Source of the DNA: a virus
Direction: 5' to 3' (one strand)
Length of the DNA stretch: 37,192 bases
Virus record (IMG/VR): IMGVR_UViG_3300023178_004086
Coordinates: 1 to 37,192 of that record
Each line of letters opens with the position of its first letter. Position 1 is the first letter of the stretch. The translations under genes and the position numbers were made by a program. Below are positions 8,440 through 37,192 of this stretch, one piece after another. The notes beneath the pieces are model-generated. The model worked only from the letters and a program-made list of their open reading frames with translations, was not told the origin of the DNA and did no database searches.

Positions 8440-9116
8440 TATATATCTCTAACGCTTGATATTAATTTCTTATTAGATATTTTATTTATCTCTTCGGTTT
8501 TGAGTGAACGATATGATTTCTTAGGCTCTTGTTTGAATATTTTTGCGTATGTTGCTTTTACTCTACTTGTAACTTTCTTTGGTGTTCTTGGAGCAATCAC
8601 AGGCTCTTGCTCCACTATCTTTTTAGGTGTTTCTTTTTTATCTAATGTATATTTACGACCTTCTTCTTCTTTTGGTTTTTCTTCTACAATCTTTTCCTTG
8701 TTGTCAACCTCAACAACATCTTCTACCACACCAGTATTTGATTTTTTAGATATAGATGCAACTTGAATAGGTGGCTTGTTATCTTCACCACTCTTTACGA
8801 TAGCAGCTTCAACTCTTATACTCTTTTCAAAATTTACTACACCATTCCAAGCAGGAAAATATCTGTTATTACAAATTACTTCCAGTGTGCAATTCTTATC
8901 ACCTGTTTTCATTTTATCTTCCATTACTGGAATTTTTACAGCATACCCACCTTCTTCTTTTTGTCTTGCATTAAAAGTATAATTAAACCCGCCATCTTCT
9001 ACAATAAAACGCACACGCACATTTTTTTGCTCTTCTATGCTATTAGAAGAAACATTTATAGAGATGTCAAAATCTAATTCTTCTTGCTCGTCAATTCTTA
9101 CAGAAATATCACTCAT
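8439..9116 (-). CDS. Unknown protein: N-terminal beta domain with a charged flexible tail
   Basis: I do not recognise this 225-residue protein. Residues 1-100 look like a beta-sandwich, with alternating strands such as VRVRFIVED, GGYAVKIPVM and CTLEVICNNRYFPAW. From about residue 105 it becomes Lys/Glu/Pro rich and probably disordered (KIVEEKPKEEEGRKY, APRTPKKVTSR), ending in a basic segment. The gene overlaps its upstream neighbour by 8 nt and its downstream neighbour by one base, so it belongs to the same translational unit as the gp15-like gene. A small virion or assembly protein is plausible from position alone. Confidence 0.75.
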   Translation of the reverse strand: MSDISVRIDEQEELDFDISINVSSNSIEEQKNVRVRFIVEDGGFNYTFNARQKEEGGYAVKIPVMEDKMKTGDKNCTLEVICNNRYFPAWNGVVNFEKSIRVEAAIVKSGEDNKPPIQVASISKKSNTGVVEDVVEVDNKEKIVEEKPKEEEGRKYTLDKKETPKKIVEQEPVIAPRTPKKVTSRVKATYAKIFKQEPKKSYRSLKTEEINKISNKKLISSVRDI

Positions 9117-9480
9117 CGGCTACCTCAGATTCTTCCAAAACTTCTCTTCTCTTTACAGATTTAACTTCCACTTTATAAATATCATCGTAGATTACATTAG
9201 CATCTTTCATATCTATTTTTATATTTTGCTTCTCGTCATATTCTATCATGTTTTTGTAATTTATTTTTTTACCAAACAAATTTGTTTTTATTTCCCAATG
9301 TTCTACGCCATCATAAAATTCTTTCGGGTCAAATGGTTTAGACCTTCTTGCCCTACGACGACCTGTGTTAGCACCACCACCTTTAGGTAAATTAGCACCA
9401 TATCCATAAGTGACAACTCTACTATCTGGACCTAAACCCATTGTCACAATGCTGCTTTCTAATAATTCAGATAATTTCAT
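9109..9480 (-). CDS. MKL-family small basic protein, unknown function
   Basis: There are two tandem ATG codons, at 9483 and 9480. I choose 9480 because it gives the N-terminus MKLSELLESS, matching six other proteins in this window, and because the resulting TGATG is a one-base stop-start overlap with the giant coiled-coil gene. The 123-residue product carries L-L-E followed by Ser at residues 6-9, a possible prohead-protease site. Then come a Gly-rich stretch (VVTYGYGANLPKGGG), an Arg cluster (GRRRARRSKPF) and a charged beta-rich C-terminus. I recognise no fold. It lies about 17 kb downstream of the next nearest family member, among tail and fibre genes. Head-internal location is inferred only from the N-terminal peptide. 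Confidence 0.75.
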   Translation of the reverse strand: MKLSELLESSIVTMGLGPDSRVVTYGYGANLPKGGGANTGRRRARRSKPFDPKEFYDGVEHWEIKTNLFGKKINYKNMIEYDEKQNIKIDMKDANVIYDDIYKVEVKSVKRREVLEESEVADE

Positions 9481-12400
9481 CATACAGGCACCCTTAAGAA
9501 AACTCTTTCTGCGTTTGGTTGACCATTTTCATCTTTCAAATCAAACTCAACTATTGGCGTTGAGCCGTCTGTATCATAAATAAATAGTTTTTGCTCTGAT
9601 GGGTCTACCTGCCATTTACCAATTTGTGTTTGTAGTATGGTGTTTGCGGTATTAACATTTTGGTCTACTTTTGTCAACAAGCTATCAAGCTTCTGATCCG
9701 CTGTTGTCAAGTCATCAGTTGCTAGTTCAGCTGTGACGCTCACCATGTCAAGGTCAAGTTTATCTATTTTGCTTTCAATACTAATAGTGTCTGACTCTAT
9801 TCTATCAACAATTAGTTTTGTTGTATCGACAATGGTTTCTATGTTGGCAGTTTCAGATTTAATATCATCTACCACTGTATCTATTGTAATAATATTTGCG
9901 TTTGCCGTATCCAATTTAGTTTCAATATTATCTGTATCAACCTGTATGCTGTCCACCACTGTATCAACTGTGTCAACTTTTCCTTCTATGTCCGTTACTC
10001 TGCTAATAATATCATCAAGCTTCTGGTCAGCAGTTGTTAAGTCATCTGTTGTTAGCTCTGCTGTAATAGAAACAACATCAAGGTCAATCTTATTAATTTT
10101 TTGTTCTATGCTTACAAAGCTTGTTGACTGTCCGTTGATTAGAGATGTTACATCAGCAGCGATATTTGTAATCTTGTCATCCAATGTTTCTGCATCATAG
10201 GAGCCAATCTCTGCTGTGACAGAAACCATATCAAGATCCAGTTTATCAATCTTTGTCTCAATGCTTGTAGTATCGACCTGCATAGCATCTACTTTGGAAA
10301 TCAAACTATCAAGTTTCTGGTCTGCTGTGGTCAAATCGTCTGTTGCTAATTCGGCAGTAACAGAAATCATATCAAGATTTATTTTATCAACAACATTATC
10401 AACAGTATCAATCTTTCCTTCAATAGCTTGTGTGTCTAATAGAATGTCATCTACATTGCTATCAATGGTTGCTAATGAGTTTATAATAGTTGTATGGTCT
10501 GTTTGTAGTTGTGTTATGCCAGCCTCAATGTCTGTGCCTTGTGTACCTAACCCACCAACATCGGCTTGAATAGAATCAACAATACTATCAATGGTTACAA
10601 TATTTGTATTGGCAGTGTCAACTTTGGTTTCGATAGTGCCAACAGAAGATAGTAGACTGTCCAACTTTTGATCTGGTGTTGTTGGGTCGCCAACTGCCAA
10701 CTCCGCTGTTAGACTTACAACATCGGTATCAATCTTTGTATTAAGATCTATGATACTTGTTGTGTCTATTTTTAAGTCATCAACTTTATTCTCAATGCTT
10801 ATAGTATCAACTTCAATATTATCCACCACTGCATCTATTGTGTCAATTTTACCATCCAATGTAATTATGTTGGTGTTAGCAGTATCAATCTTGGTTTCTA
10901 TAGAATTTGTATCTACTTGAATTGCGTCAGCAATAGTATCTATGGTGTCAACCTTGCTATCCAATGTAGTTATGTTTGTATTAGCAGTGTCTACTTTTGT
11001 TTCAATACTATTCGTATCAACTTGAATAGAGTCAACCACAGAATCTATTGTGACAATGTTAGCGTTTGCTGTATCTAGTTTAGTTTCGATATTGTCCGTG
11101 TCTAATTGAATGCTGTCAACAATGTTGTCAATAGTTACAATGTTTGTGTTTGCTGTATCTACTTTTACTTCTACACTACCAACCGAAGCAATTATACTAT
11201 CAAGTTTCTGATCTGTTGTTGTTAAGTCATCAGTCACAAGCTCTGATGTTACGCTAATCATATCAAGGTTTATTTTGTTTGTATCAACTATAATATTTTC
11301 TGTATCAAGTTTTACAGCATCAACCTTCGATTCAATGCTTGTAGTATCAACTTCTATTCTATCTACTGTGCTATTTATTGTGTTGATTTTGCTGTCAATA
11401 CCAGTTATATCGGCAGCGCTACCCAAAACTGTTGTCTCTATAGTATCTACTTTGGTTTCTATGCTATTTGTATCGATTTGAATATTATCAACTATGTTAT
11501 CTACAATATTTAGTTTAGCCTCTATATTGTCTGTATCAATTTGTATGCTATCAACTACATTGTCAATAGTAATAATATTAGCATTTGCTGTATCTATCTT
11601 TGTCTCAATGCTCGTAGTATCTGTTTCGATTCTAGCTGTTGTATCTCTAACCACTTGCACATCTAACATATGGTTGTCAACTTTGATGTCTATGGTTGAG
11701 ATATCCGCCTGCACCGCATCGACCTTTGCTTCTATGTCAGAACTGTCTGATAGAGAAGCATCTATTTTTGTATTTAGGGTATCTACCTTTGTATCAATTG
11801 TGTTAATGGTGTTGGTCAAAGACGATAGGTCTCCATTGCCATCAATCTTTGACTCAATACTAATTGTATCAACTTCTATTCTATCAACTACAGTATCTAT
11901 AGTATCTATCTTCGCCTCTAGTGTAGAAAAGTCTGTGGGGGTGATGTTTGAAACATCAACTGTCAAATCATCAACCTTAGTCTCTATACTGTTTGTGTCA
12001 ACTTGAATACTATCAACAACGGTATCAACAATATCAACCTTAGTATCTAATAATCCAATTGTGTTAATCAAACTATCAAGCTTCTGGTCGGCAGTCGTCA
12101 AATCATCAACAGCTAATTCTGCTGTTACAGAAACTACATCAATATCAATCTTGTCAACTTTTGTATTAACGTCGTCAATAACATTATCTATTGTGTTTAA
12201 TTTAGTATCCATCAACGTAGTAATAGATTGTATATCATCAACTACTGTATCCACGGTATCTATCTTGCCATCCAATGTGCTCATTGAAGCAACCAAGCTA
12301 TCAAGCTTCTGGTCTGCTGTCGTTAGGTCATCCGTAGTTAATTCAGCAGTAATAGAAATAACATCAGCATCTATCTTGTTTAATATGTCGTTGTTGTTTG

Positions 12401-15400
12401 TTATATTAGATGTATCAACCTTGATACTATCAACCACTGTGTCGATTGTATCAATCTTGCCTTCAACAGCATTTACATCAACCTGTATAGCGTCTACGAT
12501 ATTGTCAATGCTATCTATCTTACCATCGACAACACCGATGCTTGTGCCCAACGAAATAACACCACCATCAATGTCATCAACTTTTGTTTCTATGCTTATA
12601 GTATCAGCTTCAATTCTATCAACCACCGTATCTACTGTATCAATCTTGCCGTCCAATGTATTGACAGAAGATATAAGAGCGTCGAGTTTCTGGTCAGCAG
12701 TCGTCAAATCGTCTGTGGCAAGCTCGGCAGTTATAGATATAACATCATCACCCAACTTTGTTACTGCAGCATTTAGAGGTAATAGAGAAGTCAGATTGAC
12801 ATCCATGCCATCAACTATGCCATCAATAATATCTATCTTAGCCTCAAGCCCAGCTGTGTTGGTGTTGATGGTACTTAATTGAGTGTCTAAATTGCTGGTG
12901 TTAGTGTTAATGGTATCAACAACACCGTCTAATGTTATTATGTTTGTATTAGCTGTATCAATCTTGGTTTCGATAGAGCTTGTATCAACCAAAACAGAAT
13001 CCACTTTTGTTTCTATAGAAGTTATAGCGTTGCTATCAACCTGTATAGCGTCAACCTTCCCATCAATAACATCAACTTTTGTTGTTAGTGCGTCTGTTTT
13101 AGTTTCTATACTGTCAGTGTCTAACTGAATACTATCCACCACATTATCAATAGTTGTTATGTTTGCATTAGCAGTATCTATTTTTGTTTCAATGCTATCT
13201 GTATCAATTTGAATGCTATCAACGATATTGTCAATGGTGGCGACATTTGTATTTATAGTGTCAGCTTTTGCATCTATTGATGATGTGTCTAGTTTTATAG
13301 AATCAACTACACTGTCTACTGTATCAATTTTTGTTTCAATATTATTTGTGTCAATTTGAATGGTGTCTACAACCGTATCAACAATATCTATTTTTGTCTC
13401 TACGTTACCCATAGATGTAATTAAGTTATCCAGCTTTTGGTCAGCAGTAGTTAGGTCATCTGTTTCCAACTCTGCTGTTATAGACACAACATCAACATCT
13501 ATTTTGTCTATTTTGGCAACTATATCGCTGTTGTCTAAGTCAAGGTCATTAATATCTGATAATATGTTTGTGGTGTCAATCTTTATATCGGATATTATAC
13601 TTCTGATTGTTGTAGTGTTATAAGAATCAATAGCAGAAGTTATGCTCACGACATCTGCCATAGATTTTGTATGGTCATCTAATAGTATATGAGTATCAGT
13701 TTCGATTCTGGATACTGTGTCATCTATCAAAGATAGTTGTGTGTCAATATTTCCGGTATCAATTAATAAGTTGGTAGTGTCAACAATCACAGTATCTATT
13801 TTAGCATCAGTAGCAGCAATATCCGATATTGCTGTGTCAATCTTTGTTTCTATGGAAATCGTGTCTGTTTCTATTCTGCTTGCTATATTTTCTATGTTAG
13901 TGTTTTGTACGCTCAAAGAATCAACAGATAATTGCACTGTTGCAACATCATTAGTTAAAGATGTGATGTTTGTATTAGTTGTGTCAACTTTTGTTTCTAT
14001 AGAAACTGTATCAGCCTTTACTAAGCCTATGTTTGTGTTGATCGTGTCTACTTTTGTATCTACCAAAGAAATATCACTGCTTATATTAGATAGTGTTTGA
14101 ACTGTTGTGTTTAGGTCGTATGTGTCTAAATCAGCAGTAACAGAAATCATATCTGCATCAAGCTTCACTAATTTATCATCCAGCGATTGTATGTTGTTAG
14201 TCGTGTTTCCTTGACTAATGCTCAAAGAAGATATGTCAGATATTATAGTATCTACTTTAGTATCTAATGTTGTTAGGTCGTATGCACCGATTTCTGAAGT
14301 TACAGAAACCATGTCGGCATTTATTTTGTCTAAAGAAGATGGGATACTGTCTGTGTTGTTGTCTATTTCTTCGACAATGTTTCTTAGTGTAATTACATTG
14401 TAAGAATCTATGCTCGCTGTTACGCTTTCAATATCTAGATTAGATTTATCTACTTTATCGTCTATAATGTCAATCTTTGAATTTAGGGTGTTGTTTTGAA
14501 CATCCAACTCAGCTAAGTCATCTAAAATATCATCAAGTTTTGTGTTAACGCCACCAGATCCTAATTCAGCGGTAACTGTTACAACATCAACATCTATCTT
14601 GTCAACAACCGTATCAATAATATCTACCTTTGCTTCTATGTTGTCGGTATCAATCTGTATGCTGTCTACAACATTATCAACAACGTCAATTTTGTTATCC
14701 AAAGTGGCTATATTTACTTGAATATTATCGACATTAGCGTCAATAACATCTATTTTGTTTTCCAAGCCAGTGCTGTCAAATGTTATATTGCTCACATCAA
14801 CTGTAAGTGAATCAACTTTTGACTCTATGCTAGTTGTGTCTACTTCAATTCTATCTACTACGGTGTCAATATCTACAACCTTAGTCTCTACATTACCCAT
14901 TGAGTTCAACAAGCTATCAAGCTTCTGGTCGGCGGTTGTTAGATCGTCTGTTGATAATTCAGCAGTTATGCTTACTACATCAGAATCTATTTTATCTAAT
15001 GCATCTTGAATAGCTGTGCCGCCAGTGTTGAATGATAGGGTGTCTACTTTTCCCTCAATAGACACAGTATCTACTTTTATAGAATCAACCACTGTGTCGA
15101 TTGTATCTATCTTTGTCTCTATGCCAGACAAATCAGTAGTGGGAATGTTTGCGACATCTGTTGTGAGAGAATCAACCTTGCCTTCAATGCTAGTTGTGTC
15201 AACCTCAATTCTATCAACAACTGTATCAATGGTATCTATTTTTGTCTCAAGGCCAGAAAGATCAGTGGTAGGTATGTTGCCAATATCAGTAATGGCTGTA
15301 TCTACCTTACCTTCGATGGAAATAGTATCAACCTCAATTCTATCAACTACCGTGTCGATAATATCAAGTTTAGCTTCTACAGTAGATAAATCAACATTAA

Positions 15401-16556
15401 CATTCAGGTTATCTATTTTGTTTTCTATGCTAATTGTATCAACTTCAATACGATCTACAACGGTGTCAATGGTGTCTATTTTAGCTTCAATACCAGATAA
15501 GTCAGTAGTGGGAATGTTACCAATATCAGTAATAGCAGTATCGACTTTTGTTTCTATGGCTATAGTATCTACTTCTATTCGATCTACTACTGTATCGATA
15601 GTGTCGATCTTTGTTTCTAATCCGCTCAAGTCTGTTGTTGGAATGTTAGCAATATCATTATCCAAATCATCTACTTTAGCAATTAAGCTGTCAAGCTTCT
15701 GGTCTGCTGTAGTCAAATCATCAGTAGCTAATTCAGATGTAACAGAAACTACATCTAAATCTATTTTGTCAAGATGCTCTACTATGTCTCCAGAGGCACT
15801 AAGCACATCTCCAGATACACCAAGCACCATCGTTGATGTGGTCCATAAGTCAGTAGCAATACTAGAAAGGTCTGTAATTACAGTGCCTATTCTATCAAAT
15901 ATGGTTTGTAGATTTTCAGTGCCACCTTGCAACGTATCTTGAGCATTAGTGATAGCTGTTTGGATATTTGTTATATCACCAATAGAGCCACCAAGATTTC
16001 CTAACACATCACCCCTAACAGAAGTTATGCCTTGACCGAAGGAACCTTCAACCGTGTGTTCGCTGCGTAATGAAGACCAAACTGCAGTTGCCATTGATTG
16101 AATATCTTCATCAGTTATTGTGTTGACACCATCAACGATGTTAGACCTAACAAGAGAAATTGTTACTCCAGGAACGGGATTAACAACGTTTCCACCTGTC
16201 TCTCTTGTAAAAATATTCCCAACTACATTTAAAATGTATTGACCATTCCATGGCTGAATACGCCATCCGTTTTCTAAGAAGAATGTGCTACCTACAAATA
16301 ATCTATCTGTGATGGGGTCACCACCAACCACAGACATCGCTTGCACAAATCGAGAGTTATTGTAATAGGACGCAGCTACCCAAGATTTCCAACCTTCGTA
16401 AATATCCTCCCTAACATCTAAATCCGTAATTCCTTCAGCAACCACTATAAGTTTGTTAGGTCCATCAAAGGCAACTTTAGTGTCACCAAAAAATAAAGGC
16501 GGATCGTAATCTTCCCAAAAGGCCCAGTGGCCGTAATTCAGCGTCAAGTAGGGCAT
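9480..16556 (-). CDS. Giant coiled-coil fibre protein (2358 aa)
   Basis: Residues 1-150 form a globular N-terminal domain with EDIYEGWKSWV, VGGDPITDRL, FFLENGWRIQPW and VRSNIVDG, a module I know from virion proteins of many tailed phages. MATAVWSSLRSEHTVEGSFGQ-like sequence follows at about 155-175. From about residue 220 to 2300 the chain is almost wholly coiled coil, with Ile/Val at 3-4 spacing and Asp/Thr/Ser between, for example KIDTIDTVVDRIEVDT. It is broken by short Pro/Gly turns (NIPTTDLSG) and by 17 inserted modules ending in DLTTADQKLDSLI or variants. The last 50 residues (GKWQVDPSEQKLFIY, FLRVPV) form a small beta cap that normally pairs with the AVW-GSFG motif. The ATG immediately follows the upstream TAA. 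A trimeric whisker or long fibre is the likely product. A tape measure is less likely because of these end domains. Confidence 0.8.
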   Translation of the reverse strand: MPYLTLNYGHWAFWEDYDPPLFFGDTKVAFDGPNKLIVVAEGITDLDVREDIYEGWKSWVAASYYNNSRFVQAMSVVGGDPITDRLFVGSTFFLENGWRIQPWNGQYILNVVGNIFTRETGGNVVNPVPGVTISLVRSNIVDGVNTITDEDIQSMATAVWSSLRSEHTVEGSFGQGITSVRGDVLGNLGGSIGDITNIQTAITNAQDTLQGGTENLQTIFDRIGTVITDLSSIATDLWTTSTMVLGVSGDVLSASGDIVEHLDKIDLDVVSVTSELATDDLTTADQKLDSLIAKVDDLDNDIANIPTTDLSGLETKIDTIDTVVDRIEVDTIAIETKVDTAITDIGNIPTTDLSGIEAKIDTIDTVVDRIEVDTISIENKIDNLNVNVDLSTVEAKLDIIDTVVDRIEVDTISIEGKVDTAITDIGNIPTTDLSGLETKIDTIDTVVDRIEVDTTSIEGKVDSLTTDVANIPTTDLSGIETKIDTIDTVVDSIKVDTVSIEGKVDTLSFNTGGTAIQDALDKIDSDVVSITAELSTDDLTTADQKLDSLLNSMGNVETKVVDIDTVVDRIEVDTTSIESKVDSLTVDVSNITFDSTGLENKIDVIDANVDNIQVNIATLDNKIDVVDNVVDSIQIDTDNIEAKVDIIDTVVDKIDVDVVTVTAELGSGGVNTKLDDILDDLAELDVQNNTLNSKIDIIDDKVDKSNLDIESVTASIDSYNVITLRNIVEEIDNNTDSIPSSLDKINADMVSVTSEIGAYDLTTLDTKVDTIISDISSLSISQGNTTNNIQSLDDKLVKLDADMISVTADLDTYDLNTTVQTLSNISSDISLVDTKVDTINTNIGLVKADTVSIETKVDTTNTNITSLTNDVATVQLSVDSLSVQNTNIENIASRIETDTISIETKIDTAISDIAATDAKIDTVIVDTTNLLIDTGNIDTQLSLIDDTVSRIETDTHILLDDHTKSMADVVSITSAIDSYNTTTIRSIISDIKIDTTNILSDINDLDLDNSDIVAKIDKIDVDVVSITAELETDDLTTADQKLDNLITSMGNVETKIDIVDTVVDTIQIDTNNIETKIDTVDSVVDSIKLDTSSIDAKADTINTNVATIDNIVDSIQIDTDSIETKIDTANANITTIDNVVDSIQLDTDSIETKTDALTTKVDVIDGKVDAIQVDSNAITSIETKVDSVLVDTSSIETKIDTANTNIITLDGVVDTINTNTSNLDTQLSTINTNTAGLEAKIDIIDGIVDGMDVNLTSLLPLNAAVTKLGDDVISITAELATDDLTTADQKLDALISSVNTLDGKIDTVDTVVDRIEADTISIETKVDDIDGGVISLGTSIGVVDGKIDSIDNIVDAIQVDVNAVEGKIDTIDTVVDSIKVDTSNITNNNDILNKIDADVISITAELTTDDLTTADQKLDSLVASMSTLDGKIDTVDTVVDDIQSITTLMDTKLNTIDNVIDDVNTKVDKIDIDVVSVTAELAVDDLTTADQKLDSLINTIGLLDTKVDIVDTVVDSIQVDTNSIETKVDDLTVDVSNITPTDFSTLEAKIDTIDTVVDRIEVDTISIESKIDGNGDLSSLTNTINTIDTKVDTLNTKIDASLSDSSDIEAKVDAVQADISTIDIKVDNHMLDVQVVRDTTARIETDTTSIETKIDTANANIITIDNVVDSIQIDTDNIEAKLNIVDNIVDNIQIDTNSIETKVDTIETTVLGSAADITGIDSKINTINSTVDRIEVDTTSIESKVDAVKLDTENIIVDTNKINLDMISVTSELVTDDLTTTDQKLDSIIASVGSVEVKVDTANTNIVTIDNIVDSIQLDTDNIETKLDTANANIVTIDSVVDSIQVDTNSIETKVDTANTNITTLDSKVDTIDTIADAIQVDTNSIETKIDTANTNIITLDGKIDTIDAVVDNIEVDTISIENKVDDLKIDTTSIIDLNTKIDTDVVSLTAELAVGDPTTPDQKLDSLLSSVGTIETKVDTANTNIVTIDSIVDSIQADVGGLGTQGTDIEAGITQLQTDHTTIINSLATIDSNVDDILLDTQAIEGKIDTVDNVVDKINLDMISVTAELATDDLTTADQKLDSLISKVDAMQVDTTSIETKIDKLDLDMVSVTAEIGSYDAETLDDKITNIAADVTSLINGQSTSFVSIEQKINKIDLDVVSITAELTTDDLTTADQKLDDIISRVTDIEGKVDTVDTVVDSIQVDTDNIETKLDTANANIITIDTVVDDIKSETANIETIVDTTKLIVDRIESDTISIESKIDKLDLDMVSVTAELATDDLTTADQKLDSLLTKVDQNVNTANTILQTQIGKWQVDPSEQKLFIYDTDGSTPIVEFDLKDENGQPNAERVFLRVPV
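9650..15800 (-). repeat. Coiled-coil repeat array, 11 canonical plus 6 diverged modules
   Basis: The unit K-I-D-x-D-V-V-S-V-T-A-E-L then DDLTTADQKLDSLI occurs in near-canonical form 11 times, near 9690, 10020, 10315, 10665, 11205, 12080, 12305, 12690, 13430, 14930 and 15690. Six shorter variants that keep the VSVTAE part but replace the second half lie near 10190, 13630, 14130, 14300, 14410 and 14580. Between them run many copies of the IDTVVDRIEVDTISIETKVD type. Copies share 20-nt stretches of DNA but vary at third codon positions. Confidence 0.8.
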
Positions 16557-19175: not shown

Positions 19176-19259
19176 AAGACCTCCTTAAATTCTATTATAT
19201 ATCTTATTTTAATAACTATAACATAATAAATATATAATAAAATTACTAAAAAAAATATA

Positions 19260-26647: not shown

Positions 26648-26648
26648 T

Positions 26649-27017
26649 TTATCCCACCTTTATCTTTTTAGTTTTCCATAATCTTTTTATGAAATTCTCC
26701 AAACTAATTTGATGTGGGATTTCTCCAGAAGTAACTTTACCAATTAACATTTGCAGGAAATGTCTTTTTATCTTCTTATCTTTAACTAGTTCTGGATATT
26801 CATCATATAATATATCAATAGCTCTGTCTATTAACTGAGCTTCGATATCTGCATCCAATGTTTGTGTTAGTTTGTCATCAACATTATTGCCGGGTGTAGG
26901 TCTGTAACCAACGTTATAGGCAGAAAATGATGCTGGATTTCTGCCATGATAGTTGGAATGAGGTTCTGCTTGTGGAACATAAAAATCCGCCTCTTTTAAA
27001 ACATCTCTAAGTTTCAT
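26649..27017 (-). CDS. MKL-family protein next to the prohead protease (122 aa)
   Basis: The N-terminus MKLRDVLKEADF includes L-K-E followed by Ala at residues 7-10, a textbook gp21-type cleavage site. A loop-rich, aromatic middle follows (NYHGRNPASFSAYNVGYRP), then a helical C-terminus (DADIEAQLIDRAIDILYDEY; HFLQMLIGKVTSGEIP; FIKRLWKTKK). It lies one base after the protease stop. In T4 the position after the protease is held by the scaffold gene 22, but this protein is too short and not Glu/Lys-rich enough to be a standard scaffold. Head-internal protein is my preferred reading. Function is unknown. Confidence 0.75.
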   Translation of the reverse strand: MKLRDVLKEADFYVPQAEPHSNYHGRNPASFSAYNVGYRPTPGNNVDDKLTQTLDADIEAQLIDRAIDILYDEYPELVKDKKIKRHFLQMLIGKVTSGEIPHQISLENFIKRLWKTKKIKVG

Positions 27018-27018
27018 T

Positions 27019-27630
27019 TTATAGCCCTAATATTTCGTCTAACACACCTTCAATTTTCAAATACTTGTTTTGTTTTATTAGTGTTCTATAAACAGCACTT
27101 TCCTGTAAATGCATATATGCATTACTTGTTGAGGGGTTACTAACCATATCGTAACATACTAAGTTAAAGTCATCCTCTACAATATCGTATCCTTCATGAT
27201 TTCTACTTACACTACCAAGACCTCTTGAAGAAATACCTAACTTAACATTTCTTTCTACTAACTTACCAAGTATCTGACCTTTAGGTGTATCCAATACTTC
27301 TATTTCACCAACCAAGTTTTCACCATCCCATCTTGTTTCAGTTACTAAGTGAGAAACATTCTCTAACTGAACTATGGGGCTATCGGGGTGATCTAATTCA
27401 CCTAAAGCTCTTCTATCCTTAACTAATTCTTGATATTTTTGATCTTCTCTTTCTAAAACTTGACGAGGGTAAATTCTATTATTTGCGTTTGGTTTACCAG
27501 CTGCTTGAATAATACCCTTCATTTTAAGTATACCATCACTAGATTTTGATGGCTTAACATCGTCATACTCAAATAAAAGAAAAGAATGAATTAAGTTTGG
27601 GGATGCATTATTGTTAATAATCTCTGTCAT
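27019..27630 (-). CDS. gp21: Prohead protease, T4 gp21-like
   Basis: At 203 residues it has the size of T4 gp21. The conserved parts are in order: an N-terminal strand region with GKPNANNRIYPRQVLE (45-60); the catalytic His in GELDHPDSP (H81); WDGENLVGEIEVLDTPKG (101-118); the catalytic Ser in LGISSRGLGS (S134 or S135); and VCYDMVSNPSTSNAYM (158-173). These are the marks of the phage prohead serine proteases. The enzyme is built into the prohead, cleaves scaffold and inner proteins after (L/I)-x-E, then digests itself. Its position downstream of the portal matches T4 order. A GAGA ribosome site precedes the ATG. The 30-residue C-terminal tail may be trimmed autocatalytically. Confidence 0.92.
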   Translation of the reverse strand: MTEIINNNASPNLIHSFLLFEYDDVKPSKSSDGILKMKGIIQAAGKPNANNRIYPRQVLEREDQKYQELVKDRRALGELDHPDSPIVQLENVSHLVTETRWDGENLVGEIEVLDTPKGQILGKLVERNVKLGISSRGLGSVSRNHEGYDIVEDDFNLVCYDMVSNPSTSNAYMHLQESAVYRTLIKQNKYLKIEGVLDEILGL

Positions 27631-27632
27631 TT

Positions 27633-28109: not shown

Positions 28110-28134
28110 TTTTTTAGGTCTAAACTATTTAATG

Positions 28135-28773: not shown

Positions 28774-28791
28774 TATTATTCTCCAATAATT

Positions 28792-29625: not shown

Positions 29626-29685
29626 AAATTTAACCCCAAAATTATATTATTAGTCTAGTATAAATATAGCTAAAATAAGAGAAAA

Positions 29686-31473
29686 TCAATCTTTTGATAC
29701 AAAATATACCTTTCCTGTATTAGAAAGTTTATTATTTTTCATATCTTTTCTAATATTATCCATAATTTTATTCGATTCTTGGTCAAAACGCATTATTTCT
29801 GTAATGGTTTTATTAAAAGAATCTGTTCTAGATTTTCTTCCTGTTTTCTTCTTGATAATGTCTTTTTTCTCTATATCACTTGTTATTTGATCTATACTAC
29901 TCTCAAAATTTCTCTCAAAAGAATCAAACTTAGGATATCCCTCCAACTCATCAGTTCCCAGTGGGTCATATGGAGTAACATTTTTAAATGATTTAAATTT
30001 ACTATCTTCCTCAACATCACTCTCATTATCACCTTCTTGATCGTTTGGATTTTCTTCTACTGGTTGCTGCATAGCAGCTGGTTCTTCTTGTGCACCCATC
30101 TTAACTTGTTCTATAGTATATTCATTAGAAGCTTCTTTTACTCTATCGTTCTTTATTTCAACGATATCATCCATAGATAACTGTAATACTTCTTTTTGTA
30201 TATACTCTTTAGAAAGAAGTGGGGATTCTGACATTTGACTTGCTACATTAAATCTCTTATCCATTAAGTCAAGATTCATCATCTCTGTGACGGTTGATGG
30301 ATTAGCTAACTTCAAATCAAAATTATATATATCACTTTCATCATACCCTCTTAAAAACAAATGAACCAACCCAACTTTTGCCAACTCACTGACTACTATC
30401 TTTTGTATTCTTTGAATTGTTCTTGCAAACTTTATATCTTCTTGTGCCAATGTTCCCTTACCAGCTAAATCTTCTTCTGCTGTTAAGTATGATTTAGGAA
30501 CACCAAGTGATATAAAAAGTTTATTCTGCAAATACTGAATGTCTTCAATAGCAGCGGCGTTTTCACCACCGGGTAATGTCTCTATTCTACTTCCTCTCTC
30601 ACCCCTAATAGGAATAAAGAAATCTTCTAATATTGATTCTGGGTTGAATCTCATATCTTGATTACCAGTCTGTTGATTAACCATTGGTGTTCTTTTTAGT
30701 TTATCTCTGGCTTGCATCAAATATGTGTCAACTTGTGCTGGTGGTATATTACCTACATCAATATAAAAAACCCTTCTTTCTGGCGCTCTGGTGATACGAT
30801 ATATTAACATAGCATCTTCTGCCATTAATAATTGTTTGTATACCTTACGACCAGAATCCAAAATACTTCTTCCATATGGTAAAAACTTATCATCACCAAG
30901 TATTCTTAAGTGAGATACTTGATAATTTTGAAAAGAAGTGTTTCCTTGACCAACCCAATTAAACCTAAGAGAGTTAGGATCATTGTCATAACCCTCTTCT
31001 CTTGCTATTTCCTCAACTGGTAAAGCTATAGAACCTAAAACACCTTCACCTTCAACTAAATCTAAAAGATTAAAATGATCTCCATATTTAACCATGTTTC
31101 TAATCCATGTCCATAAGTGAAAATCAATATCTAATCTCTCATAATAAAGTTCTTCTAACTCTTCCTTGATTTTCTGATCTTCTGAAAATATATTTAGTAT
31201 ATTTCCATCAATACCATAAACCATAGAATCATCAGCATAAATATCCAACGCTCTTGATATCTCTGGGTAATGGTCCATCTCATTATACTCTCTATACCTT
31301 TCTGATCTTTCTATACCACCCGCCAAACCTTGCTGATATATAGAAGACGCTGCTTTTTGAAAAGTATCGAAAACATTTCTTTGTGTTCTCATTGATGGAC
31401 GCTCTGTTGGAACCTTATATTGTGCAGAACCACCATTCAATAACTTTTTAAGTGTATCAAATTTACTTGCCAT
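29686..31473 (-). CDS. gp20: Portal vertex protein, T4 gp20-like
   Basis: The 595-residue protein matches gp20-type portals: YPEISRALDIYADDSM (69-84), FLPYGRSILDSGRKVYKQL (198-216), AEDAMLIYRITRAPERRVFY (218-237), DVGNIPPAQVDTYL (239-252), a long helix, NPESILEDFFIPIRGERGS (277-295), ETLPGGENAAAIEDIQYL (298-315) and NKLFISLGVPKSYL (317-330). The portal forms the dodecameric ring through which DNA is packaged, and nucleates the prohead. An extra charged C-terminal tail of about 120 residues (acidic run near 475-495, then Lys-rich helices) makes it longer than T4 gp20 (524). An AGAGG ribosome site precedes the ATG. It is two genes downstream of the terminase. Confidence 0.95.
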   Translation of the reverse strand: MASKFDTLKKLLNGGSAQYKVPTERPSMRTQRNVFDTFQKAASSIYQQGLAGGIERSERYREYNEMDHYPEISRALDIYADDSMVYGIDGNILNIFSEDQKIKEELEELYYERLDIDFHLWTWIRNMVKYGDHFNLLDLVEGEGVLGSIALPVEEIAREEGYDNDPNSLRFNWVGQGNTSFQNYQVSHLRILGDDKFLPYGRSILDSGRKVYKQLLMAEDAMLIYRITRAPERRVFYIDVGNIPPAQVDTYLMQARDKLKRTPMVNQQTGNQDMRFNPESILEDFFIPIRGERGSRIETLPGGENAAAIEDIQYLQNKLFISLGVPKSYLTAEEDLAGKGTLAQEDIKFARTIQRIQKIVVSELAKVGLVHLFLRGYDESDIYNFDLKLANPSTVTEMMNLDLMDKRFNVASQMSESPLLSKEYIQKEVLQLSMDDIVEIKNDRVKEASNEYTIEQVKMGAQEEPAAMQQPVEENPNDQEGDNESDVEEDSKFKSFKNVTPYDPLGTDELEGYPKFDSFERNFESSIDQITSDIEKKDIIKKKTGRKSRTDSFNKTITEIMRFDQESNKIMDNIRKDMKNNKLSNTGKVYFVSKD

Positions 31474-31482
31474 TTTTTACCT

Positions 31483-31710: not shown

Positions 31711-31766
31711 TTTATAATTCCTTATAGTAATCCCAATCTTTATAATATAATAAAAATCAAGAAGGC

Positions 31767-31796
31767 TATAAAATAAATATAAACATTTATTTTATA
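31767..31796 (-). terminator. Perfect AT-only stem-loop at the end of the terminase gene
   Basis: Twelve bases (TATAAAATAAAT) pair with a perfect inverted copy (ATTTATTTTATA) around a 6-nt loop. One arm contains the terminase stop codon, at 31792-31794. With only A-T pairs the helix is weak and not followed by a long U-tract. It may be a transcript end, an mRNA-processing site or a protein-binding palindrome. Position at a gene end argues for the first two. Confidence 0.35.
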
Positions 31797-33441
31797 ACAA
31801 CCATCTTAAATCTTCAACCTGTTCTTTATTTACTTTCATAGAATAAGATTCATTACCAACAGAATTAGAATTACTACTTATTCCGAACTCATAAGGAACA
31901 GGGTTAAAAGAAAGGTTAGACATTAAATGTTGAGTTATATCATTATCAGCATTAGTAAACTTTATAGTTGTGTTTCTTACATACATACCAATAGCTAAAG
32001 ACATTACTAAATCATCATTGTATCCGTCCAAAGCTTGTGGCTTACCATTATGAAAGATAAAAGTTTCTAATTCTTTCATAGTTCTTTGTGAGTGTAAAAT
32101 AAACTCATGTTGCCTTAAATCCTCTTCCAGTCGAGCTATCGCTGCTGGCCTTGTTCTTGAAGACATTGTAAATCCGGGAACTGCATTTTTAGGAGGATTG
32201 TATGGGTCATAAAATAATTGATCTCTTGCATTACTTTCGTGTAATTTAGCTAAATCTTTTATTGTCCAATACACGTTCTTATATTCCATCTCTACAATCT
32301 TCATTACTGTATGATGACCCATTGATGCATTTTCAACTACTATAAAAGCGTTGTTATATTGAACAGCTGTGTTGTGTATTAGGTGAGCATAAACATCTGT
32401 AGCTACCTTACCCTTATATTCAGCCACTTGCTCATAATTTTCAATATCTATGACATGAAAAGCTGAATAATCTTCTCCATCACCGCGAGCAACATCTGCA
32501 GATATAATATATTTTTTGGTATAATCCGGATATTTCCAAACCCACAAACCCTTATCAACCCAAGTTCTTTCTAATGGTTCCCTAACGAATGGACGATAAC
32601 CATCGTCAAGTGTCTCTTGTTCTGTTGGATGCTCTAGATACCACTCCAAAGCCTTAAGTGAAATAACATTACTACCAGATTGAACAAAGTCACAATCATG
32701 CTCTTGAGCAAAAGCTTGATCCCCAATCTTCTTGCGTGTCTCTCTCGCCCAATCATCATCGTGGTCTGGATGAACCGACCAGTGTAATTTTATTGGATTG
32801 AACCCTACTATCTTATTACCTATCTTTTCTGTAATACCAGCCTCCGCCTCATTATATATCTTGTGAAACCAGTTACCAACTCCATTAGGTGAAGATAATG
32901 CTATACAATCACCACCAGTTGCTAGTGTAGGTTGAGCTGCTATCCATATACTATCCATCTTATTAATAAAAGCTGCCTCATCAACAATGAGCAAACTTAA
33001 TGCCTCTGAACGAGCCGCATCTGGTGTGGAAGCCGATGCTTTTATTTTAGAACCATTATTTAATTCTAAACTTTGTTTATTATCAGTAATAAAATCTGCT
33101 CTCATCCACTCCGGAATACCCTCTAAAAAAACTCTTACTTTATCAACCATATTTTGAGCAGTATCTCTTTTTGTAGCAAGAATATATATTTCTTTGTTCT
33201 TAAAAAAGTTTGACAACCAAGCAGCATATCCAGCTACTAATGTGGATATACCCAACTGCCTACCCTTGAGAACTATGTTATATGAATTGTCTAAAAAATG
33301 CTGAAGTGTGTGTTCTTGGAAATCCCATAACTCAAAAGATATAATTCCCCTTAATGGATGCCTAATTCTGCCGTATTTTTTCATAAAGTAAGAAGGATTC
33401 TTTCTGCACTCTATGTATTCAGCTGTTTGTTGTTTATCCAT
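31792..33441 (-). CDS. terL: Terminase large subunit, T4 gp17-like
   Basis: The 549-residue packaging motor carries all expected parts. ATPase: Walker A GRQLGIST (60-67), Walker B LLIVDEAA (150-157) and coupling motif SSPNG (183-187). Nuclease of RNase H fold: ADVARGDGEDYSAFHVID with Asp316, IVVENASMG with Glu370, and GYNDDLVMSLA with Asp476/Asp477. It pumps DNA into the prohead through the portal and cuts the concatemer. It is a little shorter than T4 gp17 (610 residues), mostly at the N-terminus. Its ATG overlaps the upstream stop by one base (TAATG), so its translation is coupled to the WYL-like gene. No small-terminase gene is recognisable immediately upstream. Confidence 0.97.
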   Translation of the reverse strand: MDKQQTAEYIECRKNPSYFMKKYGRIRHPLRGIISFELWDFQEHTLQHFLDNSYNIVLKGRQLGISTLVAGYAAWLSNFFKNKEIYILATKRDTAQNMVDKVRVFLEGIPEWMRADFITDNKQSLELNNGSKIKASASTPDAARSEALSLLIVDEAAFINKMDSIWIAAQPTLATGGDCIALSSPNGVGNWFHKIYNEAEAGITEKIGNKIVGFNPIKLHWSVHPDHDDDWARETRKKIGDQAFAQEHDCDFVQSGSNVISLKALEWYLEHPTEQETLDDGYRPFVREPLERTWVDKGLWVWKYPDYTKKYIISADVARGDGEDYSAFHVIDIENYEQVAEYKGKVATDVYAHLIHNTAVQYNNAFIVVENASMGHHTVMKIVEMEYKNVYWTIKDLAKLHESNARDQLFYDPYNPPKNAVPGFTMSSRTRPAAIARLEEDLRQHEFILHSQRTMKELETFIFHNGKPQALDGYNDDLVMSLAIGMYVRNTTIKFTNADNDITQHLMSNLSFNPVPYEFGISSNSNSVGNESYSMKVNKEQVEDLRWLL

Positions 33442-34344: not shown

Positions 34345-34401
34345 TTTTACTCTCTTATTAAAAGTCATAATAAATATAATAAAAAAACATTTTTTTGTAT
34401 A

Positions 34402-34671
34402 TTATTTTTTATTTCTTTTGTTATATTTTGACCAAGCAATTTGATAAGGTATTTCTGAATCTTTACCAAACCTATCTTTTAAATGTTTTACCATACGTTT
34501 ATAATTATCACCGGGGGGAGAATCTTCTTCTACATCACTACTATTAACTTCTTCTTTGTCTGAACCGCAAGATGATTCATCCTGTTTATCAAGAAGATTT
34601 TTTAACATCATTATGGTGCTCTTCTTAATAATTTTTTCATCAACCTCATTAATCAAATCGCCTAATTTCAT
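34402..34671 (-). CDS. MKL-family small charged protein (89 aa)
   Basis: It begins MKLGDLINEVDEKII, with I-N-E at residues 7-9 as a possible protease site. A helix (TIMMLKNLLDKQDE), an acidic Ser/Asp/Glu stretch and a basic C-terminus (KHLKDRFGKDSEIPYQIAW, then KYNKRNKK) follow. The C-terminal part recalls short phage motifs where a Lys/Gly segment precedes a YAIA-type helix. An AAGGA ribosome site precedes the ATG, in a 57-nt AT-rich gap. No function known. Head-internal location is inferred from the shared N-terminus. Confidence 0.75.
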   Translation of the reverse strand: MKLGDLINEVDEKIIKKSTIMMLKNLLDKQDESSCGSDKEEVNSSDVEEDSPPGDNYKRMVKHLKDRFGKDSEIPYQIAWSKYNKRNKK

Positions 34672-34681
34672 TTTATCTTCC

Positions 34682-35338
34682 TTATTTTTTTATTACTATT
34701 ATACAATTTAGAGCAAAAACAACACTCATAATATATTCCTGTATTACTTGAGGTATAAACTGTTCTCTATAAATTTTACTATTTTTATTATTAATACCCT
34801 CAACAACACCTTTAAAAATTTCAACAGTTGATCCGTTTGACCCAACACCATAATTCATTGAATTGCCATAAAGTTTTCTACCAGCAGTCCAGTAAGAAGT
34901 TTCAATATCTTCTATTATATATAAACCACCATTTTCTAATCTAGGAAATAAATTATTAAAGGTTTCTATTTGATGTGGTGGGTAATGAGATGCGTCGTCA
35001 ATAACTATACGTAACTCTGGAATATCCAGTTTATCAAGGTGATCAATATTTTCACCTTGCTTTATATTACTTAATAATGTTAGTCTATCTAGATTATCAC
35101 CTTGTTTTTGAATATCGCTTATTGAGTAATTATCCATATCAACACCATATATATTCATATTTTTAAAAAGCTCATGCCACATTCTTAATGATTCACCTTT
35201 TTGAATACCTATCTCAAGTAAAGAACCAGATTGATTATATAAGCTTTGAAAAAAGAAATCATATATTAAATGATATTTATGTAAAGAAATCTTATCTGTT
35301 GAATATTTTTCTCCTATCTTATGCATATGGTTTGACAT
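34682..35338 (-). CDS. SAM-dependent methyltransferase, MycE/MycF-like
   Basis: The ATG at 35338 follows GGAG at good spacing and gives 218 residues. Visible parts: an N-terminal GEKYSTDK with HKYHLIYDFFF (9-30); the SAM-binding glycine loop LLEIGIQKGES (40-50); YGVDMD (64-69); IVIDDASHYPPHQ (111-123), giving Asp115 and His118; and ENGGLYIIEDIETSYW (135-150), giving Glu143 and Asp144. This D-x-x-H ... E-D arrangement and the GEKY-TDK opening are typical of metal-dependent sugar O-methyltransferases of the MycE/MycF type, often found with polysaccharide genes. Substrate could be a host or virion glycan or a small metabolite. It has no MKL peptide although surrounded by MKL genes. The C-terminus ends in a hydrophobic strand (VFALNCIIVIKK). 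Confidence 0.8.
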   Translation of the reverse strand: MSNHMHKIGEKYSTDKISLHKYHLIYDFFFQSLYNQSGSLLEIGIQKGESLRMWHELFKNMNIYGVDMDNYSISDIQKQGDNLDRLTLLSNIKQGENIDHLDKLDIPELRIVIDDASHYPPHQIETFNNLFPRLENGGLYIIEDIETSYWTAGRKLYGNSMNYGVGSNGSTVEIFKGVVEGINNKNSKIYREQFIPQVIQEYIMSVVFALNCIIVIKK

Positions 35339-35339
35339 A

Positions 35340-35618
35340 TTAAGACTCCATTATATAAATAATAAGATTTTTTTGTGCATTACTGCCTATAATTAACCTA
35401 TGATAAAAATTTTTTGGAATATAAAATTCAGAATTTTCTGTTAGTTTTTCTGGCATTTTATTATCCATCTGTATATACCAATCGTCAGATTGTTTTACTA
35501 AAACTGTTCTGTCTTTTCTATCTCTGTGCCATACTAACTCATCCGAATCAACATCAGCTGAAAATTCTCTTTTAATATATTTTAACTTTCTTTGTTCTAT
35601 ATATGGTTTATCTACCAC
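35340..35618 (-). CDS. Small cupin-like protein (92 aa)
   Basis: Two tandem GTG codons (35621 and 35618) could start it. I prefer 35618 because GGAGG lies six bases before it and only three before the other. The product is all beta: DELVWHRDRKDRTVLV, DWYIQMDNKMPEKL, EFYIPKNFYHRLI and NLIIYI. The His in WHRD and the later YHR fit a compact single-domain cupin barrel. Similar short proteins occur in marine T4-like phages. Metal binding is possible but the classic first cupin motif is incomplete. It lies one base before the methyltransferase gene and may act with it on the same sugar or metabolite (inference). Confidence 0.65.
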   Translation of the reverse strand: MVDKPYIEQRKLKYIKREFSADVDSDELVWHRDRKDRTVLVKQSDDWYIQMDNKMPEKLTENSEFYIPKNFYHRLIIGSNAQKNLIIYIMES

Positions 35619-36199
35619 CACTTACCTCCACCAGATAGACCTAATGACTTTGCATATCTAGGAAGTCTACATGCCCAATATGAAGCTTTTGTCTTATCTT
35701 TAGCTTGTTCGCAATTATGTCTTGAAGCAAAAGCCTTCTTAGCTTTTGGATCTTTAAGTTTTACAGATAGAGATCCCCCACCACTCTTAGCACCAAAACT
35801 TACTTTCTTTACATTTCCAGTTTTAGGGTTCTTTACATAAACATAAAACTTTTTACTACCACCTCTTTTAGGTTTACCTAACTGAACCTTCTTGCCTTGG
35901 TATTCTGCTTCGTCAATTTCTTCAGATACATCAACCATTATTGGGCAATCAAGAGGAACTTTATTGCCTTCAAATTCTGCAAACTCACCAATATCTGTTT
36001 CCAATATTTCCATATCTTCTGCAGTAAGACCTTCTAATTTGCCATCATTATATTGTTTTCTAGCTTCTCTATATAAGGAGAAATAATTCTCACTTCCATT
36101 TCTAAAAACACTTTCTGAAAGAGGAATAGAATCTTTTTTATGAAACTTTATAGCTTCAGTAATAACTTTTTCTTTTTTTATTATTGTAGATAATTTCAT
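35612..36199 (-). CDS. MKL-family basic protein with a Lys/Gly-rich C-terminal domain (195 aa)
   Basis: It begins MKLSTIIKKEKVITEAIKF, with I-T-E followed by Ala at residues 13-16, a good gp21-type site. Residues 20-90 are acidic and helical. Residues 95-195 form the recognisable part: EYQGKKVQLGKPKRGG, KKFYVYVKNPKTGNVKKV, a Gly-rich turn, then FASRHNCEQAKDK and ASYWACRLPRYAK, ending GGGKWW. The same domain occurs in many marine T4-like phages as an uncharacterised protein. One His and two Cys (RHNC ... YWAC) might bind metal. Strong positive charge in the domain suggests DNA contact. The ATG overlaps the upstream stop as TAATG. Its last codons contain the ribosome site of the next gene. Confidence 0.8.
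   Translation of the reverse strand: MKLSTIIKKEKVITEAIKFHKKDSIPLSESVFRNGSENYFSLYREARKQYNDGKLEGLTAEDMEILETDIGEFAEFEGNKVPLDCPIMVDVSEEIDEAEYQGKKVQLGKPKRGGSKKFYVYVKNPKTGNVKKVSFGAKSGGGSLSVKLKDPKAKKAFASRHNCEQAKDKTKASYWACRLPRYAKSLGLSGGGKWW
35625..35629 (-). promoter_or_regulatory. GGAGG ribosome site that sets the GTG start of the cupin-like gene
   Basis: The minus strand reads GGAGGTAAGTGGTGG. The GGAGG sits inside the codons for the C-terminal Gly-Gly-Lys-Trp-Trp of the upstream gene. Spacing is six bases to GTG at 35618 and three to GTG at 35621, which favours the former. Confidence 0.6.
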
Positions 36200-36402
36200 T
36201 ATTTCTTATCTCCATCCATATAATTGAAAACTGATTGCACATAATCCAGTGCTTTTGTAATCTTAGATTGTGTCCATGCTGGTAACTCATCGCCATCTTC
36301 TATTTTATCTAACAACATTGATGCTATCTTGGCAGTTCTTTTTAACTCACTTCTTGCCATAGATCCTTCATCATCACCTTCAAGTAAGTTTTTTAACTTC
36401 AT
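36199..36402 (-). CDS. MKL-family small helical protein (67 aa)
   Basis: It begins MKLKNLLEGDDEGS with L-L-E followed by Gly at residues 6-9, a possible protease site. The rest is a two-helix protein (MARSELKRTAKIASMLLDKI, then LPAWTQSKITKALDYVQSVF) ending NYMDGDKK. The second half, with a Pro-x-W-x-Q-x-K-I-T-x-A-x-D-Y pattern, is a small conserved domain that I know from many marine T4-like phages, usually also with an MK-type N-terminus. GGAG precedes the ATG. Function is unknown. Packaging inside the head is inferred. Confidence 0.75.
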   Translation of the reverse strand: MKLKNLLEGDDEGSMARSELKRTAKIASMLLDKIEDGDELPAWTQSKITKALDYVQSVFNYMDGDKK

Positions 36403-36403
36403 A

Positions 36404-36484
36404 CTAATCTCTCCAAGATGTATCTAACTCATCCACCTTTTTTATTCTATTAAATATTTTCTTTATCCATCTAAGTATACACAT
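36404..36484 (-). CDS. Possible 26-codon peptide gene
   Basis: An ATG at 36484 opens a frame to TAG at 36404, one base before the next gene's start. The peptide MCILRWIKKIFNRIKKV continues ELDTSWRD. It is an amphipathic basic helix with an acidic tail. It lacks a clear ribosome site, having only AAAAGTAGAA upstream. It fills the 89-nt gap exactly, which is suggestive, but a chance frame of this length is common. Confidence 0.35.
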   Translation of the reverse strand: MCILRWIKKIFNRIKKVDELDTSWRD

Positions 36485-36491
36485 AATAATT

Positions 36492-36803
36492 CTACTTTTG
36501 CATTATAGCTTTTTTCTTAGGTCTACCCTTACTACCGTAATGTTTTCTTTTTCTTGCTACAGCATTCTTCTTATCTTTCTTAGACATACTTGCAGCAACA
36601 GACTTCTTACGGCACTTAGGATAAGCTCTTTGACCACCCTTACGAGACTTCTTACCGGCAGATGCTCCACAAGGCGGGTGACTACCGTCTTTGTTCTTAC
36701 GACTAACATCGACCCATTTTTCTCCAAACCATTTACCTAGTCCGGAATTCTTATAAACTTTTTCACTTAAATAAAGTGTATCCAACACTTCTCTTAGTTT
36801 CAT
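36492..36803 (-). CDS. MKL-family very basic Cys-containing protein (103 aa)
   Basis: It begins MKLREVLDTLYLSEKVYK; L-S-E at residues 12-14 is a possible protease site. The mature part would start with SGLGKWFGEKWVDVSRKNKD, then GSHPPCGASAGKK, a basic Gly-rich run, AYPKCRKKSVAASMS, and a final Lys/Arg tail. The W-V-D-x-S-R ... P-C-G ... Y-P-K-C-R pattern is a small family I know from T4-like marine phages. About a third of the residues are Lys or Arg, so DNA binding is likely, and two Cys might hold a metal. The ATG overlaps the upstream stop by four bases (ATGA). A nucleoid-like head protein is a reasonable inference. Confidence 0.8.
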   Translation of the reverse strand: MKLREVLDTLYLSEKVYKNSGLGKWFGEKWVDVSRKNKDGSHPPCGASAGKKSRKGGQRAYPKCRKKSVAASMSKKDKKNAVARKRKHYGSKGRPKKKAIMQK

Positions 36804-37192
36804 CCCTTAGATCTCCAAGATCCGCCATTCTTCTTATAATGTTTTGCTGCCCATGCGTTTGCATATGCTGAAGGATACACTTTGAACTTTCTCTTAGCTG
36901 CAGCTACAGAAGCCGCCCACTTCTTTTTATCTGTAGGTGTATTCTTTTCTGTAAAAAGTTTCACCTCAGCCATTTCTTTGCGAGTTATTCTTGGTTTATA
37001 ACCTTCTTTTTTTAACTCTTCTTCATCGCTAACGTGTGCATCATCAACATCATTAAAGAAATCATCTTTTTCATCATCCTCTAAGTCATCTATAGAATCA
37101 ATACCGTGTTTAGACATCATATCTCTAAACTTTTGTTGGTATTCGTCTTTATCACCCTTAGCTTCTTTTTTTAATAAATCTGTTAGTTTCAT
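36800..37192 (-). CDS. MKL-family protein with an AYANAWAAKHYKKNGGSW motif (130 aa)
   Basis: The ATG lies at the very edge of the window, but the MKLTDLLKKEAKGD start matches the family, so I take it as complete at the N-terminus. Residues 15-60 are acidic and helical (DMMSKHGIDSIDDLEDDEKD). Residues 85-130 are basic (KKWAASVAAAKRKFKVYPS, then AYANAWAAKHYKKNGGSWRS). This last motif is recurrent in small uncharacterised proteins of T4-like marine phages. Here the Glu after the MKL peptide sits in K-K-E-A, which does not fit the (L/I)-x-E rule as well as in the other six. The upstream ribosome site is outside the window. Confidence 0.75.
   Translation of the reverse strand: MKLTDLLKKEAKGDKDEYQQKFRDMMSKHGIDSIDDLEDDEKDDFFNDVDDAHVSDEEELKKEGYKPRITRKEMAEVKLFTEKNTPTDKKKWAASVAAAKRKFKVYPSAYANAWAAKHYKKNGGSWRSKG

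Follow-up and report, generated by a model that had tools for sequence, protein, structure and literature searches.

The DNA analysed here is the entire virus record IMGVR_UViG_3300023178_004086 (hereafter the window), a 37,192-base fragment of a T4-like phage that is represented solely by environmental DNA and whose genes are read on the minus strand; seven of its 27 called genes start with the same kind of short peptide, MK[LI]..[LIVM][LIVMF], for which the relatives of the window reveal the stronger pattern M-K-L-x-x-[ILV]-[LI]-x-E. With a probability of roughly three in four, this leader is a capsid-targeting propeptide of the kind known from the internal proteins of T4. The original prediction of a gp21-type capsid-targeting propeptide on diverse proteins is supported by the tagged protein families, their location near the head genes, a glutamate conserved in a tagged kinase, similar sites in the capsid proteins of relatives, the ranking of T4 genes and the protein T4-GC190 of phage S-SM1. 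Judged from the sequences, packaging and cutting of the tagged proteins are probable, and their injection is plausible.

A leader common to unrelated proteins

The seven MKL starts named in the original prediction (37192, 36803, 36402, 36199, 34671, 27017 and 9480) are all present in the translations, e.g. MKLREVLDTLYLSEK from 36803 and MKLSTIIKKEKVITEA from 36199, and the codons had been read correctly, with AAA or AAG as codon 2 and CTA, TTA or CTT as codon 3 in every case; (L/I)-x-E occurs in six of them as claimed, the exception being 37192 with L-K-K-E. A short N-terminal peptide is common to otherwise unrelated proteins of one phage; (L/I)-x-E stands at its end, and a gp21-type prohead protease is encoded by the same phage.

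Of the relatives of the window locus, 57 were found in IMG/VR. Three samples were compared: group A with 48 sequences (the window, L002-L046, L050 and L066; eleven more distant loci were excluded), whose 572 called genes were reduced to 251 representatives at 70% identity and to 121 families; group B with 34 loci found via the tagged kinase; and group C with far terminase relatives. Genes were called by a home-made caller, so that some starts may be wrong; the motif counted was M-K-[LI]-x-x-[LIVM]-[LIVMF]-x(0,2)-E. In group A it was present in 31 of the 251 representatives compared with one of 900 internal methionines, and shuffling of the alignment columns gave a mean of 1.7 and a maximum of 6 in 300 shuffles. 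Group B had 17 of 284 versus none of 1366 internal methionines, and the strict motif was found in only 6 of 582 (versus 2 of 3375) in group C. At the level of families, 18 of the 121 in group A had a tagged member and 14 were tagged throughout, which agrees with the expectation that further tagged proteins exist beyond the window. When shared descent was removed by taking one protein per family, 300 draws contained a mean of 15.7 tagged proteins (minimum 14) against 1.07 (maximum 5) after shuffling. The triplet [LI]xE exceeded the background 9.3-fold with its glutamate at residue 9 in group A, 5.5-fold at residue 10 in group B and 6.0-fold at residue 10 in group C; the reversed triplet at these positions reached 1.2-, 0.7- and 1.2-fold, respectively.

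Conservation of the junction glutamate

The tagged P-loop kinase offers the most detailed view of the junction between leader and protein body. In this family the leader is 6 to 52 residues long and its sequence varies between phages; the junction glutamate, in contrast, was present in all of the 22 aligned sequences, preceded two positions earlier by [LIV] in 19 (by phenylalanine in the remaining three) and followed by glycine in 19. Together with P-loop residues, it belongs to the 11 invariant columns of the alignment. The family of the window gene 35612-36199 behaves similarly, with a junction glutamate in 28 of 42 distinct sequences and a varying sequence in front of it; this set was obtained by BLAST (83 matches, 42 distinct after exclusion of fused proteins longer than 320 residues), since a first search pattern had been too strict and gave 13 matches. 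Some homologue searches, including that for the T4-GC190 loci described below, kept the best 80 of more matches, and one pattern in such a search itself began with the junction glutamate. In the structural models of the kinase and of the 35612-36199 protein, the first ten residues had a low mean predicted local distance difference test score (pLDDT; 53 and 48, respectively) and the block behind them a high one (86 and 85), both being drawn as helix.

Comparable sites are found in the major capsid proteins of relatives: [LIV]xE[ASGET], a permissive pattern sought over residues 46-100, was present near the propeptide end in 19 of 20 distinct N-termini and the remaining one was truncated, with L050, L039 and also G003 as the only close relatives in this list. 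T4 gp23 sheds a propeptide of 65 residues, according to passages of PMC9026906; in the T4 record this length corresponds to a cut at FLTE|A.

A leader that stays uncut is the strongest competing explanation. The peptide would then bind the scaffold as a core-docking element, the proteins would act in the prohead or be held by it, and the glutamate would be part of the docking motif. The tight position of this residue, at 8, 9 or 10 in 9, 34 and 5 of 48 tagged representatives (with leucine or isoleucine two residues before it in 40 of the 48), could be expected of a docking motif, and some tagged genes lie among assembly genes. However, the propeptide of the capsid proteins carries a comparable [LIV]xE site at its end, and in the kinases the glutamate is retained beside the domain even as the preceding leader is rewritten and ranges from 6 to 52 residues, which is better explained by a cut site. 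Permanent docking is an unlikely alternative to a cleaved capsid-targeting propeptide.

Tagged proteins and their position in the genome

The 57 representatives with the core motif in groups A and B fell into 23 body families; the two groups share some contigs, and the representatives hold repeats, the families less so. Among the proteins with a Pfam match, the kinase matched AAA_33 and Zeta_toxin above the curated Pfam cut-offs (E 3e-8), and its model had a bacterial polynucleotide kinase as best match in the PDB, followed by zeta toxins, at a modest template modelling score of 0.46-0.53 by query. Below the Pfam cut-offs were a tagged cytidylyltransferase-like protein (E 0.009), an HAD phosphatase-like protein (0.02) and a 107-residue protein resembling rifampin ADP-ribosyltransferase (L151:11550-11873; Arr-ms, E 3e-4), the last a possible parallel to T4 Alt. 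Tagged bodies shorter than 260 residues were more basic than untagged ones, with a net charge per residue of 0.065 versus 0.019 (46 versus 369 proteins, p = 2e-5). Small basic domains that are separate tagged genes here occur elsewhere fused in many orders (L298, L310, L311, L332, L333, L295, L064), with a nucleotidylyltransferase among the fusion partners.

Three head genes were recognised in the window:

27019..27630, minus strand: gp21-type prohead core protease (Peptidase_S77; Pfam 1e-27, PHROG head maturation protease 5.6e-50)
29686..31473, minus strand: gp20-type portal protein (phrog_213, 2.7e-72)
31792..33441, minus strand: terminase large subunit, gp17-type (phrog_2, 4.1e-51)

The first of these, the gp21-like protease already noted in the original prediction, is presumed to be the cutter of the tags. 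A major capsid gene was not recognised in the 37,192 bases. The portal proteins of the closest annotated isolates, Microcystis phage Mel-JY01 and Flavobacterium phage immuto, have 41-45% identity over 70% of the length, and the relatives point to an aquatic habitat.

In five contigs (the window and G001-G004) the strict tag was found on 22 of 165 genes near the terminase and on one of 100 elsewhere (p = 2e-4, an optimistic value since the interval, from -10.5 to +13.5 kb relative to the start of the terminase, was chosen once the contigs had been inspected), the single outside case being the 9480 gene of the window; MK[LI] starts as such were distributed in the same way (43 of 165 versus 2 of 100). 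The genes outside the interval include what we take, by eye, to be primase, SbcCD-like, PhoH-like and other genes. An equal frequency of the peptide on non-virion genes, named in advance as an outcome that would count against packaging, was thus not seen in these five incomplete contigs.

Ranking of T4 and S-SM1 genes

A scoring matrix was built from 35 tagged proteins of groups A and B with T4 excluded from the training; its count of 37 of 251 in group A is circular, the training set being drawn from groups A and B, and its tolerance of one or two extra residues was chosen in the knowledge that the T4 leader is longer. On the 279 called genes of T4, the matrix placed Alt 5th, IPIII 10th, IPII 11th and gp24 15th, and ten gp21 substrates (named in the T4 record and in passages of PMC9026906) outranked the other genes (one-sided p = 8e-4). 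The highest-ranking T4 gene was 61.1, a hypothetical protein that starts MKTFKEFIKE-D (L355:18966-19130) and could be an unrecognised internal protein.

In cyanophage S-SM1 the second of 230 ranks was taken by the cytidyltransferase T4-GC190, which starts MKKFSAFLNE|A and was reported by mass spectrometry in the purified virion, according to part of Sullivan et al. 2010 (PMC3037559). The anchor pattern was recognised in 63 of 80 loci (the top 80 of a larger number), and these 63 had kept the leader, in 22 distinct versions. The N-terminal domain of T4-GC190 matched the tagged protein of L013 (BLAST E 1e-6, S-SM1 proteins being the only ones searched), and a profile of this domain finds a 384-residue protein of L005, a near-identical relative of the window.

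These results also bear on the possibility that the peptide is a docking or addressing signal unrelated to the capsid, e.g. one directed to a host factor or to a phage assembly in the cytoplasm, and common to late proteins. Several tagged proteins do resemble enzymes able to act in the cytoplasm; the proximity to head genes, the likeness to the leaders of T4 internal proteins and a leader of this kind on one protein reported from virions speak against an address of this type, which is very improbable.

Evidence that weighs against a capsid-targeting propeptide

Several observations count against the proposed capsid-targeting function. Some known T4 substrates rank low in the matrix (IPI 87th, gp67 131st, gp23 169th), and neither S-SM1 nor immuto exhibited a genome-wide [LI]xE peak. 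The strict MKL leader is absent in immuto, which repeats other leaders instead. Group B is biased towards tagged kinases, as one of its search patterns was the leader of the kinase itself. In group A, additional [LI]xE peaks appeared at residue 5 (5.8-fold) and residue 14 (4.9-fold), and the reversed triplet reached 7.8-fold at residue 16; the extra peaks may stem from related proteins remaining in the set. One tagged family adjoins the terminase, with three of ten members tagged and the member of the window untagged, and may represent a packaging protein rather than cargo.

The joints inside fused cargo proteins belong here as well. The occurrence of cargo domains alone and fused in many orders had suggested cut sites at each joint, i.e. 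a polyprotein. This was not supported: the site and the reversed motif each occurred at 19 of 88 joints. A single cyanophage joint makes up 41 of the 88 and has neither, which leaves 19 versus 19 for the remaining 47. Of nine distinct joints that precede the 35612-gene domain in the PAWTQ-type fusion, one had the site. With no excess at the joints, the site marks N-termini and not every domain.

Finally, codon 3 was CTA in 16 of the 31 tagged proteins of group A compared with 14% of leucine codons overall, and Lys-2 was AAA in 25 of 31 compared with 60%. Some nucleotide-level bias thus exists alongside the conservation of the protein that the original prediction had read from the varied codons. 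That the whole pattern arises from translation initiation or N-terminal composition (AAA second codons, common MKL starts, late-gene initiation context) is hardly to be believed, since the glutamate at residue 9, the joint motif in the column shuffles, the kinase junction and the rarity of the leader on the remaining genes of these contigs would be left unexplained.

The repeated leaders of immuto are MKKSQLRxIIKEE and M.NFDLKKFLVENKLT, and contig G001 contains MKIRKSELKELVQEVLDEA (L061:2294-18931, L345:10224-13001); these may be second classes of capsid leader.

Tagged genes of the window

The leaders (the bar indicates the predicted cut) and the proteins they precede are as follows:

26991..27017, minus strand: tag MKLRDVLKE|A of gene 26649-27017, which immediately follows the protease gene; five of seven family members tagged
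26649..27017, minus strand: tagged 122-residue protein; a single Pfam match far under the cut-off, no PHROG match
34645..34671, minus strand: tag MKLGDLINE|V of gene 34402-34671; matrix score 19.0
34402..34671, minus strand: tagged 89-residue protein; function not assigned by Pfam or PHROG
36155..36199, minus strand: long tag MKLSTIIKKEKVITE|A of gene 35612-36199
35612..36199, minus strand: tagged 195-residue protein with a phrog_7595-like C-terminal domain; first ten residues of low confidence in the model
36379..36402, minus strand: tag MKLKNLLE|G of gene 36199-36402; MKLTNLLEG in relative L011
36199..36402, minus strand: tagged 67-residue protein; function not assigned by Pfam or PHROG
36762..36803, minus strand: tag MKLREVLDTLYLSE|K of gene 36492-36803; in relatives MKLQDVLNE|K, MKLQDVLTE|K and MKLSEVLAQIDE|K
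36492..36803, minus strand: tagged basic 103-residue protein; DUF5872-like (under the Pfam cut-off) and phrog_23735
37163..37192, minus strand: tag-like MKLTDLLKKE|A at the contig edge
36800..37192, minus strand: open reading frame of 130 residues whose C-terminal domain is basic (KVYPSAYANAW); perhaps the 3' portion of a longer gene
9457..9480, minus strand: tag-like MKLSELLE|S of gene 9109-9483; outlier

Two of the seven are weak examples. Start 37192 coincides with the final base of the contig, and its open reading frame translates as MKLTDLLKKEA; in the near-identical L005 the frame extends upstream to give the aforementioned 384-residue protein, which starts MKLYRIIEE and in which the methionine of MKLTDLL is internal and follows GAAGGAAATAAC. 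In relative L011, MKLTDLLKEA is the start of a separate gene, with a ribosome-binding-like AGAGGA. For the 9480 gene, an alternative start (MMKL) precedes the listed one by a single codon; this gene is separated from the terminase by about 22 kb, stands well apart from the other six and forms a one-member family among the proteins of close relatives that were compared.

Searches of Pfam and PHROGs with the seven proteins yielded no function beyond the weak DUF5872 and unnamed PHROGs; NCBIfam and PADLOC, both applied to the same four of the seven, gave no match, and the fold search with the model of the 35612-36199 protein gave none under E 0.89.

Among the neighbouring genes, a small VWHRD protein (35340-35621) overlaps the 3' end of the tagged 35612 gene; VWHRD-like proteins also follow the homologue of this gene in immuto (101829) and Melnitz (16902), apparently as a conserved pair. 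The 2358-residue protein at 9480-16556 contains near-repeats VSVTxELATDDLTTADQKLDSL close to both ends.

Proposed role

In the proposed mechanism the peptide, perhaps as a short helix, would dock the attached protein to the assembling prohead core; the gp21-type protease would cleave after the glutamate and thereby remove the peptide, and the mature protein would be left inside the head beside the packaged DNA, with which it would probably enter the cell. The peptide would serve as a portable label for small basic proteins and likely enzymes, the latter being the P-loop kinase and two more weakly matched proteins, one a nucleotidylyltransferase and the other ADP-ribosyltransferase-like.

A more far-reaching idea, to which we would give somewhat less than even odds, is that a distant T4-like lineage loads a large exchangeable set of proteins via one portable leader as a first-strike kit that acts before phage gene expression, with leaders being swapped between lineages and the cargo-adjacent glutamate being kept; the likely enzymes of this kit would be the zeta/polynucleotide-kinase-like kinase, the nicotinamide mononucleotide (NMN)-type nucleotidylyltransferase and the ADP-ribosyltransferase-like protein. 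The head-carried internal proteins of T4 counter host defences, according to passages of PMC9391042. If the capsid-targeting function is true, a nine-residue rule would predict head-carried proteins from sequence alone, including enzymes otherwise taken for auxiliary metabolic genes or toxins; the role of many small phage proteins of no known function would become testable, and the MKL leader would represent a natural, shorter packaging tag.

Comparison with known systems

The capsid-targeting sequence of T4 was defined on IPIII, where, according to passages of PMC9026906, the first ten residues are enough for a protein to be packaged, residues 4 and 7 being important to targeting and residues 8 and 10 to processing, and the gp21 cut follows L/I-x-E; the same passages already suggest that T4-like phages may load various proteins through this sequence. 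In a literature search covering mainly freely accessible papers, no description of an MKL-type leader in such phages was recognised. A matrix score of 8 was reached by none of the 737 called genes of T4, S-SM1 and immuto, so that, among the phages compared, the MKL form is particular to the clade of the window.

Among cleaved head proteins of other phages, the ejection proteins of SPN3US-type giant phages are alike in that many head proteins are processed by the prohead protease, as described in parts of the literature on them; they belong to a separate phage group. T4 Alt, a virion-packaged ADP-ribosyltransferase with an N-terminal propeptide of seven residues (passages of PMC9026906), is likewise a head enzyme with a short cut leader. 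The weakly Arr-ms-like tagged protein of L151, with 107 residues compared with 682 in Alt, is likened to it by enzyme type only. T4-GC190 of S-SM1 is comparable by its leader MKKFSAFLNE|A, a domain in common with the tagged L013 protein and its reported presence in virions. It differs by the FSAFL-type leader and by the fusion to a nucleotidylyltransferase domain, the joint before which was without a gp21-type site in 41 distinct versions.

A likeness in layout exists to IPII and IPIII (and IPI) of T4, with an MK start, hydrophobic residues before x-E and (L/I)xE followed by a small residue; IPII and IPIII bear the identical leader MKTYQEFIAEA, read from the T4 record, on unrelated proteins. 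In contrast to the F-I-A-E at residues 7-10 of T4, the leaders described here have [ILV]-[LI]-x-E at residues 6-9 and leucine at residue 3, and their cargo comprises more families, likely enzymes included. Given the shared layout and site, the length shorter by one residue, Leu-3 and the wider cargo, the MKL leader is best regarded as a probable variant of the T4 capsid-targeting sequence.

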